Source: Cyanobacteriota bacterium
GTDB taxonomy: Bacteria; Cyanobacteriota; Cyanobacteriia; CACIAM-69d
Length of the DNA stretch: 64,000 bases
Assembly (NCBI GenBank): GCA_022402445.1
Contig: JAKRSF010000006.1
Coordinates: forward strand, 62,001-126,000
Direction: 5' to 3'
Of the stretch, positions 43,925 to 48,843 are shown piece by piece; position 1 is the first letter of the stretch; every line of letters begins with the position of its first letter. Both the position numbers and the translations under genes were made by a program. The notes under the pieces were generated by a model. It made no database searches, was not told the DNA's origin, and saw nothing but the letters and a program-made list of their open reading frames with translations.

Positions 43925-44926
43925 CTAGCGGCGGTGGAATTCCACGCGATCGCCGCGCAGGGTCACATCATAATTGCCAAAGAAATTTTGCCCCAACAGG
44001 CCAATGGTCATGCTGGAGGACACGGCCACCTGAAGGTCGCTGGCGATGAGATTGCCCACCCGCAGGCGCTGCACCTGGCTGATGGGCAGCTCCACCGCCG
44101 TATCGCTGGGGGTATTGACGCGGACGGAGCCCGTGGGCTGGAGCTGCAACGCGGCGGCCATGGCGGGGGTCAGGACCGTGAGGCTGGCCCCCGTGTCGAT
44201 CGCCATGGCAAATTCGCGGCCATTGAGTTCAACGCCAATCACCGGGATCCCGCCCATGCGGTTGATGATCGGGGCGACGGCCAGGAGGGTGGAAGCGTCG
44301 GTGGGGGTTGTGGGGGGGGCGGGTTCGTTGCGGGGGGTGCCGTCCGAGGCCGGGGCGATCGCGGGCTCCCCGGTCACCGCCGGATCTGCATTGGGGACAT
44401 TTGGCGGGGAAGCGGGCCGCAGGGCCAGGGGCTGCTGGGCGGGGGGCGGCATGGGTGGACGGCGCGATCGCGCGATCGCATAGCGACGATTTTGGCCATA
44501 TTCCTCAAGCTTTTGGCGCGCCTCCCCATGGCGAGGATGCCCCGCTGGCACCTGTTCGAGCAGGGCGATCGCCTCCTGCCACCGGGACGCCACAAACTCC
44601 CAATCCGACGGCACCCGCGCCGACTGGGTGAGCCGCGCCGCCCCATAGCCCTTATCCAAGGCCGATTGATATAAACCCACCCCCCGACTCGGGAGATTCG
44701 GCTGGAGCGCCTTAACCGCCGGAGGGTCCGGAGCCGCCTGCGGAACCGCTGCGGGGGCCGCACTCCCCGACGACTCCGCCGAGGATGCCGTCGCTGGATC
44801 CGGGGGCGATCCGGCGGAATCGACCGCATTGGCCCCCGCCGGGGGAGATGGGGCCGTTGGCAGCAGGGCACAACCACCGCTCGCCAGCGCCACCAGCACG
44901 ATCCATGCCCACCCTTGAAATCCCAT
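43925..44926 (-). CDS. Retropepsin-like aspartic protease lipoprotein
   Basis: ATG 44926 gives 333 residues with a short hydrophobic signal ([11 protein letters not shown]) and lipobox ASGGC, so it should be lipid-anchored on the periplasmic side. A Pro/Ala-rich linker and a helical tetratricopeptide-like piece ([18 protein letters not shown] ... [16 protein letters not shown]) are followed by a clan AA domain (about 225-333) with the catalytic [11 protein letters not shown] (Asp244). One such domain means it must act as a dimer. Substrate unknown. Divergent from carA with 136 bases between. The longer frame to 45112 overlaps the carA start. Confidence 0.78.
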
Positions 44927-45062
44927 GGCCCTGGCCCAAACGTTCTCCAAAAGTTCCCAAAAAATTCCTAAGAAACTGCTCGAAATGTGTCGAGATCGAT
45001 GGCAGCCCCCCGCCAGAAGTGGTTCTATTATTGATGATTTTACTCGCGCGATCGAAAGAACT

Positions 45063-46238
45063 ATGGCCATTGCAGCAGCCCGCCCCGCCCTCCTGGTGCT
45101 TGCCGACGGCACCGCCTACCGGGGCTATAGCTTCGGCGGTGCCGGGACCACCATCGGGGAAGTGGTGTTCAACACCGGCATGACGGGTTACCAGGAGGTG
45201 CTCACGGATCCGAGTTACTGCGGCCAGATTGTCCTGTTCACCTACCCGGAGTTGGGCAATGTGGGGGTCAACCCGGAGGATGAGGAGGCGAGCCGTCCCT
45301 TTGCCTGCGGTGCGATCGCGCGGAACATCTGCCACCGCCCGAGCAATTGGCGCTCCACCGAATCCCTCCCGGACTATCTTGACCGCCACCACATCCCCGG
45401 CATTTATGGGGTGGACACCCGCGCGATCGTCCGCAAAATCCGCGCCGTCGGAGCCATGAACGGAGCCATCTCCACGGAAATTCTCGACCCGTTTGAACTG
45501 CTGCGTCAGGTGCAGGAAGCGCCCCCCATGGCGGGCCTCAACCTGGCGAAGGAAGTCAGCACCCCCGAACCCTACGAATGGGCCGAAACCACCGCCGCCG
45601 CCTGGGAATTTAACCCCGCCACCGAGGCCACCCGCCCCGATGTGGGCGAAACGCCCCTGACGGTCGTGGCGATCGACTTTGGCGTCAAGCGCAATATCCT
45701 GCGCCGCCTCGCCAGTTTCGGCTGCCGCGTCATCGTCGTGCCCGTCACCAGCACGCCGGAGGAGATCCTCAGCCACAACCCCGACGGCATTTTCCTGTCC
45801 AACGGCCCCGGCGATCCCGCCGCCGTCGCCGAGGGCATCGCCACGGTCAAGGAACTGCTGGGGGCGGACAAGCCCATCTTTGGCATCTGCATGGGCCACC
45901 AGGTGCTGGGCCTGTCCCTCGGGGCCGAAACCTTCAAGCTCAAGTTTGGCCACCGGGGCCTCAATCAACCGGCGGGCCTGAGTCAGCAGGTGGAAATCAC
46001 CAGCCAAAACCACAGCTTCGCGATCGCGGAGGGCTCCCTCCCCGATGCCGACGTGGAAATCACCCACCTGAACCTGAACGATCGCACCATCGCCGGCCTG
46101 CGCCACCGGCAACTGCCCCTATTCTCCGTGCAGTACCACCCCGAAGCCAGCCCCGGCCCCCACGACGCCGACTACCTCTTCGAGCAATTCGTGCGCGCCA
46201 TGTGGGACGCCCGCCGCACCATGGCCACCAGTCGCTAG
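45063..46238 (+). CDS. carA: Carbamoyl-phosphate synthase small subunit
   Basis: Glutaminase subunit that supplies ammonia to CarB for carbamoyl phosphate, feeding arginine and pyrimidine synthesis. ATG 45063 gives 391 residues. The N-terminal domain starts [18 protein letters not shown] and contains [12 protein letters not shown]; the class I glutamine amidotransferase domain (about 200-385) carries the nucleophile in [11 protein letters not shown] and the His-Glu pair in [14 protein letters not shown] longer in-frame extension reads poorly and is rejected. CarB is elsewhere, as usual in cyanobacteria. Confidence 0.96.
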
Positions 46239-46329: not shown

Positions 46330-46367
46330 GATAAGTTGTCGATATTGCCTAGCCAAAGGAGGGCTCT

Positions 46368-46745
46368 ATCCCCGAGCAACTCACCCTGACCGTCAGTTTA
46401 CGAGGCACACGCGAAGTCAGGGACCATTACCAACTCTTTCGCCTCACCGGGTTACTCGACGCCTTCTCCGAACCCACCTTTCGGAAGGTCCTGTCTAAAC
46501 TCGTCAGCGAAGGGCCGCCCCATGTGGTGCTGGACCTCTCGCAGATCGACTTTGTCGATAGTTCGGGGTTGGGAGCCCTTGTCCAGATCACCAAACAGGC
46601 CCAGACGGACGGCGGCTCCTCGCAGATTGTCACCAATCCCCGCGTAACCCAAACCGTCAAACTGGTGCGTTTAGAAAACTTCCTGTCCTTGCAGGAATCC
46701 GTCGATGTGGCGATTGCGCGTATCCCTCTGCCAGGGGATGGGTGA
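46368..46745 (+). CDS. STAS-domain (anti-sigma-factor antagonist type) protein, apparently AUC-started
   Basis: A 125-residue single STAS domain: PEQLTLTVSLRGTREVRDHY, FRLTGLLDAFSEPTFRK, VVLDLSQIDFVDSSGLGALV (phospho-acceptor Ser in DSSG). Such proteins switch partners when phosphorylated by anti-sigma-type kinases. The complete domain has no ATG, GTG or TTG in front of it: the frame is closed by TAG at 46350, and the only start-like codon behind the very strong AAAGGAGGG (46355-46363) is ATC at 46368. The next normal start, GTG 46524, would remove half the fold. The stop overlaps the next start (GTGA), so the three genes are translationally coupled. Confidence 0.85.
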   Translation: MPEQLTLTVSLRGTREVRDHYQLFRLTGLLDAFSEPTFRKVLSKLVSEGPPHVVLDLSQIDFVDSSGLGALVQITKQAQTDGGSSQIVTNPRVTQTVKLVRLENFLSLQESVDVAIARIPLPGDG

Positions 46746-47266
46746 TCCCCGTGGCGAGTGATTCCCAAGCCGACACGGTTTCACCCCTTCCGCAGCCAAG
46801 CCCGATCCCATCATCTGCGGCTTGGCTGCCCTTTCCTTGGGATGGGGTTGCCGGTGGCGAAGATGTGCGCACCGTGTCGCCGTCGGCCCTGGCCTATGTG
46901 GGGGACGCGGTTTATGAACTTTTGGTGCGACGCCAGTTGTTATTCCCCCTACGGCGGCCAAAGGATTACCATGGGGCTGTGGTTGAACGGGTGAGGGCGG
47001 AGGCCCAGGCTCGGAATTTAGAGGCCCTGCTACCCCTGTTGACCGAGACGGAGCGGGATGTGGTGAAGCGCGGCCGCAATGCGCCCTGGAAGCATCCGAA
47101 GCGTCTTGACCCGATGACGTACCAGTTGGCGACTGGTTTTGAGGCCCTGGTGGGCTATTTGTATTTGACTGCGCCTGAGCGGCTGCTGTTTTTGTTGGAG
47201 CAGATCGGCATGGGCGCTGTGGCTTTGAATTCTTCCTCTTCAGATCGAGATCTGCACGCTCCATGA
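46742..47266 (+). CDS. mrnC: Mini-ribonuclease III
   Basis: RNase III catalytic domain without an RNA-binding domain; in Bacillus it matures 23S rRNA ends and in cyanobacteria similar enzymes contribute to rRNA and intron turnover. GTG 46742 overlaps the STAS stop. The 174 residues begin with a disordered Pro/Ser extension of about 40, then the domain: [17 protein letters not shown] with catalytic Asp55, the helix [16 protein letters not shown] and [18 protein letters not shown] with the second acidic site. It overlaps the next start by four bases (ATGA). Association with rlmB fits a role in large-subunit rRNA maturation. Confidence 0.92.
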
Positions 47267-48843
47267 GTGATTTTGATTCCAATGACCGCCGCCCGTCCAA
47301 GTTCGGCCGTGGCGGTAAAAAGGGTGGCAAGCCGTCCCGCGATCCGCAGGGGCGCTCCCGGCCGCCGCGTGAGGGCCAGGGGGCTGGTGGTGACCGGCCT
47401 GCCTATGGACGACGCGATGATCGTCCTGGCGATCGCGGGGACCGACCGGCCTATGGGCGGCGTGACGATCGCGGCGAAGGGGGTGGTGGAACCCAGGGGG
47501 GTGGCGATCGCGGCAAGCGCCCGTTCCCCCGCTATGAGGATCGCAAACGGCGCGAGCGTCCGGATGGGCCGGGGCGTCCGGAACCTAAAGGCGGTGGCTA
47601 TTACCGCGATCGCGATGGCAACCGCGAGGACAGCCGCGACGGCAATCGGGGCAGCGGCTATGAAGGTCGTTCCCAAGAGGGACGCGGCCAGGGCAAAGGG
47701 GGCGAGTCCCGGGGGCCGGTGCCTCGGGATGGGGCTCGTAAACCGCCCTACCGCGATCGCGCAGAAGGCCGCGCAGAAGGCCGCGCAGAAGGTCGCCCCG
47801 ATGGTCGCCCCGGTGGCCCTGGGGGTCGTCCCAAAGGGGATTATCAGGATTCAGGGGAGCGACGGGAGAAAAAAGGACGGTTCCAACGGGAGGGCGATCG
47901 CCGGGAACGGCCCCCCTTCCGCCCCGACGATGCCAAGGGCCACCACCGCCGGGAAGCGCCCCCCCGCCGGGAGCAAAGCCAGTGGGATGCGCTGCCGGAG
48001 CAGGGAGATGGAGATGATCCCAACGGCGAGCGCGAGGATCTGATCTACGGTCGCCATGCGGTCATTTCGGCCCTGGAGTCCGGGCGATCGCTCCACCGCC
48101 TATGGATTTTGCCCCAACTGCGCTACGACCCGCGCTTCCATCGCCTCATCCAAGGGGCCAAGGGGGCGGGCACGGTGATTGATGAAGTGAGCTATGCCCG
48201 CCTCGATCAACTCACCCAGCGGGCCACCCACCAGGGGGTTGCGGCCCAGGTGTCCCCCTATGTCTATACGGAACTCGATGACCTGATCGCCGCTGCCAAG
48301 GCCGCCAGCGATCGCCCCACCATTGTGGTGGCCGACGGCATCACGGACCCCCATAACCTCGGCGCGATCGCGCGGACCATCGAAGCCATGGGCCTCCAGG
48401 GGCTCGTCATTCCCCAGCGGCGGGCGGCGGGCGTCACCTCCACCGTCCTCAAGGTCGGCTCCGGAGCCCTGGAACACTTACCCGTGGCGCGGGTGGTGAA
48501 CCTGGTGCAGGCCCTGGAAACCCTCAAGGCGGCGGGCTTTTGGGTCTATGGCATCGATGCCCACGGCACCCAGTCCATCCACAGCACCGACCTCGGTGGC
48601 CCCGTGGTGATCGTTGTGGGGGCCGAAGGGGCGGGCCTGAGCCTGCTGGTGCAAAAGCACTGCGATCTGCTGCTTTCCATTCCCCTCCAGGGCCGCACCC
48701 CGAGCCTCAATGCCTCCGTGGCCCTGGGCATGGCGACCTATGAAATCTGCCGCCAGCGCTGGAAGAGTGCCCTCTCCCTGCCCGGTCGCGATGCGGACGG
48801 GCGACTCCAACAGCCCCAGCCTCAACCCCAAACGGTCCCCTAG
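47263..48843 (+). CDS. rlmB: 23S rRNA 2'-O-methyltransferase, RlmB/TrmH family, with long RG-rich extension
   Basis: SPOUT methyltransferase expected to methylate the ribose of a guanosine in 23S rRNA (G2251 in E. coli). Residues about 262-510 are the enzyme: [39 protein letters not shown] (motif 1), [13 protein letters not shown] (motif 2) and [18 protein letters not shown] (motif 3 knot). In front is a disordered stretch of about 255 residues made of Arg, Gly, Asp and Glu with tandem AEGR units (47760-47800), which should bind RNA or promote condensation. It is last in the STAS-mrnC-rlmB operon, overlapping mrnC by four bases. Confidence 0.92.

Follow-up and report, generated by a model that had tools for sequence, protein, structure and literature searches.

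A STAS-domain gene on the forward strand of a cyanobacterial contig appears to begin at AUC rather than at one of the usual start codons, and its relatives have kept the same class of codon. In the window analysed here, a 64,000-nucleotide stretch of a Cyanobacteriota genome, the gene lies at 46368–46745. Initiation at the AUC, as originally predicted, is strongly supported by comparison with the orthologues, none of which has ATG at this position. Across the family AUG is avoided at the start while the codon has moved among AUU, AUC and AUA (together AUH, or ATH in DNA). Judged from its residues and neighbours, the gene is an orthologue of ssr1600, which encodes an anti-SigC antagonist, and the pattern suggests that selection has kept production of the Ssr1600 family low from an early stage of cyanobacterial evolution.

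The STAS gene, its ribosome-binding site and its neighbours

The reading frame is closed upstream by a TAG at 46350–46352, followed by the Shine-Dalgarno sequence AAAGGAGGG at 46355–46363, with its AGGAGG core 5 nt before the start codon, and then by the ATC at 46368–46370, all on the forward strand. The base at 46370 singled out in the original prediction is the third base of this ATC. From the ATC the frame runs for 125 codons to a TGA at 46743–46745. As had been read from the letters alone, the TAG is in frame and a full STAS domain of 125 residues follows without a preceding ATG, GTG or TTG. The first such codon in frame is a GTG at 46524–46526 (forward strand), from which a standard gene caller would obtain a 73-aa fragment without the first 52 residues. 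A start at this GTG was rejected because the residues that would be lost are conserved.

In profile searches the product matched PF01740 (E=4.6e-17, 62.1 bits against a cut-off of 22.6) and passed the curated cut-off of TIGR00377 (62.1 against 53.45 bits). SpoIIAA-type proteins of known structure are among its relatives, and its score for the SpoIIAA equivalog TIGR02886 was 40.9 bits, below the cut-off of 114.75. The D-S-[ST]-G motif with its phosphorylatable serine is present as DSSG at residues 64–67, and the codons for Ser65–Ser66 (46560–46565, forward strand) match S59/S60, the residues phosphorylated in published Ssr1600 (PMC12329169). In Synechocystis, Ssr1600 has been shown to antagonize the anti-SigC kinase Slr1861 by partner switching, and PmgA also phosphorylates it (PMC12329169). 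When residues are counted from the ATH in five Synechocystis relatives (L251–L255), S59/S60, L24 and G43 of the published protein become residues 65/66, 30 and 49, so that each residue known from suppressor mutations or phosphorylation has a single counterpart, and two of the five contain the exact C-terminal antibody peptide LHNSLAEAIAATTEG of that study (PMC12329169). The window protein is 72% identical to those of the genus relatives over residues 2–118. These diagnostic residues, together with the gene neighbourhood, place the window gene in the Ssr1600 orthologue group as an anti-sigma factor antagonist.

The predicted duplex of AAAGGAGGG with the 16S rRNA tail has an energy of -12.6 kcal/mol, which was equalled by 14 of 174 ORFs when each was allowed its best start; the site is, as had been claimed, among the strongest in the window, and it stands at a working distance from the ATC. 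Strong sites were also found in the relatives, where the median energies at orthologue starts were -11.5 and -9.6 kcal/mol in two groups, against -3.1 in control stretches. Information content across the orthologues is 0–0.3 bit from -45 to -12, rises to 1.5–1.9 bits over AGGAGG, the sole conserved stretch upstream, and is followed by the ATH. Codon periodicity in the alignment begins at the ATH and includes codons 2–6. In a family with small genomes (L131–L160 and L225–L240) most starts are AUA or AUC and the Shine-Dalgarno sequence is GGGGG or GAGGG about 9 nt away, weaker and further from the start than the AGGAGG at 5 nt in other groups. In most cyanobacteria the AUU is usually preceded by UU at positions -2 and -1, where the small-genome family usually has CC. 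These bases may affect recognition of the start codon.

The gene order carA-STAS-mrnC-rlmB is conserved. In the window, where all four genes lie on the forward strand, carA (carbamoyl-phosphate synthase small subunit, identified by profile search) is found at 44925–46238, the Mini-RNase III gene mrnC (RNase III domain) at 46742–47266 and the 23S rRNA 2'-O-methyltransferase gene rlmB at 47263–48843 (TIGR00186, 237.7 bits). The STAS gene was immediately followed by mrnC in 141 of 160 loci and had carA upstream in 105 of the 160, the latter count being made on limited flanks. The STAS stop codon overlaps mrnC by four bases (GTGA, 46742–46745), which makes some coupling likely in the window genome. 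A coupled RNA-processing operon had been proposed, and the overlap and the conserved STAS-mrnC-rlmB order agree with this; in most relatives, however, there is a gap between the STAS gene and mrnC, and the STAS product belongs with an anti-sigma antagonist (PMC12329169). RlmB has an N-terminal extension of approximately 250 residues, Arg/Gly-rich and of low complexity, before its methyltransferase domains (47263–48000). On the minus strand an ORF at 43925–45112, overlapping the carA start region, includes an IDTGAS motif that by eye resembles retropepsin-like aspartic proteases.

Conservation of the start codon

In a first set of 110 loci, taken from 39 related genomes and from 80 named public records, the codon aligned with the window ATC was ATT (100 loci), ATC (8) or ATA (2). 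Genomes without a match to a strict pattern, the small-genome family and further deep groups were then added, which brought the set to 199 distinct orthologues. In this larger set 197 start codons were ATH (149 ATT, 27 ATC and 21 ATA), counting three rows in which an ATT just upstream of the aligned column was re-read as the ATH after an alignment offset. The remaining two were a TTG in a member of the small-genome family (L137) and a CTG outside it (L219), and the constraint to ATH is therefore not absolute; with the CTG included, a non-canonical start is found in all but one. Both exceptions have a Shine-Dalgarno-like sequence upstream. Two pattern scans that are independent of the alignment were made on 386 genomes of the phylum. 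The first found no case of ATG, GTG or TTG at the start position, and the second found the pattern HTH there in 98 genomes, in every case as ATH.

The codon usage at this position differs from that of internal isoleucine codons. In most groups ATT accounts for 140 of 151 starts against 569 of 959 internal Ile codons (Fisher p=3e-18), and in the small-genome family ATA accounts for 18 of 46 starts against 18 of 191 internal Ile codons (Fisher p=5e-6), p values that overstate the significance because the sequences were treated as independent. A count of changes on a tree is free of this weakness but rests on a quick single-gene tree, built without the start codon and scored by parsimony. At least 24 start-codon changes were counted on this tree and none led to ATG; for a neutral third base, with changes to G at the rates seen at fourfold sites, the probability of this is approximately 1.2e-4. 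Each of 39 conserved control codons changed more often than the start codon, 29–89 times.

In 17 sampled genomes from the other, non-photosynthetic classes of the phylum no true orthologue was detected; 12 had distant STAS matches and five had none. When 18 STAS paralogues from the window genome and its relatives were examined, three could not be read, and most had ordinary ATG, GTG or TTG candidates in frame, so an AUH start is not a general property of cyanobacterial STAS genes.

A proposed weak start in the SigC circuit and alternative readings

We consider it probable that the AUH start of this ssr1600 orthologue is weak by design and is made usable by a strong Shine-Dalgarno sequence, an arrangement that would keep the antagonist in short supply compared with its anti-sigma kinases. 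Translation would start at the AUC (AUU, AUC or AUA in relatives), with the initiator tRNA supplying fMet. Initiation would be lowered by the weak codon, the strong Shine-Dalgarno sequence at its fixed distance would keep the codon usable, and the two together would give a low output of antagonist. Unphosphorylated antagonist would then be outnumbered by anti-sigma kinases in the SigC/Slr1861/PmgA partner-switching circuit and SigC would be restrained. As the gene encodes an anti-sigma antagonist rather than a protein of RNA processing, a weak start would most sensibly act on the sigma-factor circuit. The ratio of antagonist to anti-sigma factor is reported to be critical, and overexpression of Ssr1600 from an ATG slows growth in high CO2, in a construct whose strong promoter is not separated from the codon effect (PMC12329169). 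We infer initiation at AUH in the cell, stoichiometry as its purpose and IF3 as the cause of the codon's weakness; by analogy with other systems, the AUH start is likely to be IF3-sensitive. The link to initiation-factor levels that had been suggested for the AUC start would thus be plausible in the light of what is known of IF3.

An extension that is compatible with this scheme, though we hold it only tentatively, is that the AUH start is an ancient control point and works as a conditional switch. Initiation fidelity, through the level or activity of IF3 or of a second cyanobacterial paralogue, might set the dose of the SigC antagonist and so tie carbon- and light-dependent growth to the state of translation. 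In E. coli, IF3 discriminates against AUH starts, in Streptomyces it represses the GTC start of sigR (PMC5472188), and the AUA start of ccpN responds to growth medium (PMC13009471). Many cyanobacteria have a second IF3-like gene, which scored above the TIGR00168 cut-off in the window genome (C8:193202-193651, L270) and in about one-third of 39 sampled cyanobacteria; the AUH start, in contrast, is near universal. No report of changes in IF3 in cyanobacteria was found in the literature searched. In most species infC itself lacks an AUH start, being ATG in the window genome and mostly ATG or GTG in cyanobacteria, so that feedback of the E. coli type through an AUU codon is not indicated, and autoregulation of infC in this manner was rejected.

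It is improbable that translation begins instead at codon 7, which is TTG in some Synechocystis and CTG in the window gene (46386–46388, forward strand), with the ATH in an untranslated leader. Kurkela 2025 took the TTG as the initiation codon of ssr1600 and changed it to ATG, and the shortened protein was functional in their assays (PMC12329169). Their numbering of S59/S60, L24 and G43 fits this start exactly, and the residue mapping and the antibody peptide place the published start at codon 7. In the Synechocystis relatives this position is 18 bases downstream of an ATT preceded by GAGGAGGG, and no mention of an AUU six codons upstream with AGGAGG was found in the main-text passages of PMC12329169 consulted. 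Of 151 orthologues, only 28 have TTG at codon 7 and the others have CTG, CTA, TTA, CTC, CTT and, in one case, ATC, whereas the ATH is nearly invariant. The ribosome site lies 5 nt before the ATH but approximately 23 nt before codon 7, and codons 2–6 show conservation of the protein type. The published start is probably six codons too short.

It is more improbable still that the ATH is an internal isoleucine codon, reached from an upstream start in another frame by a prfB-like shift at AGGAGG or from an upstream start in the same frame. ATT, ATC and ATA are exactly the isoleucine codons, and Shine-Dalgarno-like sequences can stimulate frameshifting; the usage at this position is nevertheless unlike that of internal Ile codons. 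No conserved upstream start codon was found in any frame across the orthologues, where out-of-frame starts are scattered, and frames that read through occur, at scattered distances, in approximately 28–53% of rows. The sequence upstream of the Shine-Dalgarno is unconserved and in many species in-frame stops abut it. In the first-collected set, 100 of 151 orthologues have no in-frame ATG, GTG or TTG between the ATH and the preceding stop, and in 57 of 151 an in-frame stop is found within six codons upstream.

Odd starts usually stem from single-base differences, but the chance of a sequencing error or of a mutation from ATG in a lone strain is negligible and this explanation was rejected, as isolates and metagenome assemblies alike share the codon class in 197 of 199 distinct orthologues, the opposite of the single exception among AUG-starting homologues that would have spoken against an AUC start.

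Significance and comparison with known systems

To our knowledge, bacteria offer few examples of conserved non-AUG starts, and most of these have been documented in single genera or for a handful of genes. No earlier report of the AUH start in the Ssr1600 family was found in the literature searched, and it is probably unreported so far. It is unusual both in its depth, extending across the photosynthetic cyanobacteria sampled, and in the exchange among all three AUH codons, and it belongs to a regulator for which recent work showed that the dose decides growth in high CO2. It would represent a natural case of start-codon choice acting as a brake on stoichiometry. Six N-terminal residues and the native start are probably missing from the published Ssr1600 and from its overexpression construct, and gene callers limited to ATG, GTG and TTG will shorten or miss genes of this family.

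In E. coli, infC and pcnB have AUU starts that limit translation and are sensed by IF3. The likeness to the STAS gene lies in the start codon; the genes themselves are unrelated to it, and cyanobacterial infC does not share the AUU start. The IF3-repressed sigR of Streptomyces is similar in combining a non-canonical start with a strong, conserved ribosome-binding site (AGGAGGTG), in keeping one partner of a sigma/anti-sigma pair scarce and in having its start misannotated in genomes (PMC5472188). It differs in that its start is GTC or GTT, is confined to Streptomyces and belongs to the sigma factor, whereas here an AUH start is found across a whole class on the antagonist, with a predicted role for IF3. 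In Staphylococcus aureus, AUU and AUA starts with an extended Shine-Dalgarno sequence give approximately 10–30% of the output of AUG (PMC13009471). The ccpN gene of S. aureus and Bacillus subtilis (AUA) and cvfC1 of S. aureus (AUU) likewise pair a conserved AUH start with a strong Shine-Dalgarno sequence, in other genes, in another phylum and with a narrower documented conservation than that of the Ssr1600 family (PMC13009471).
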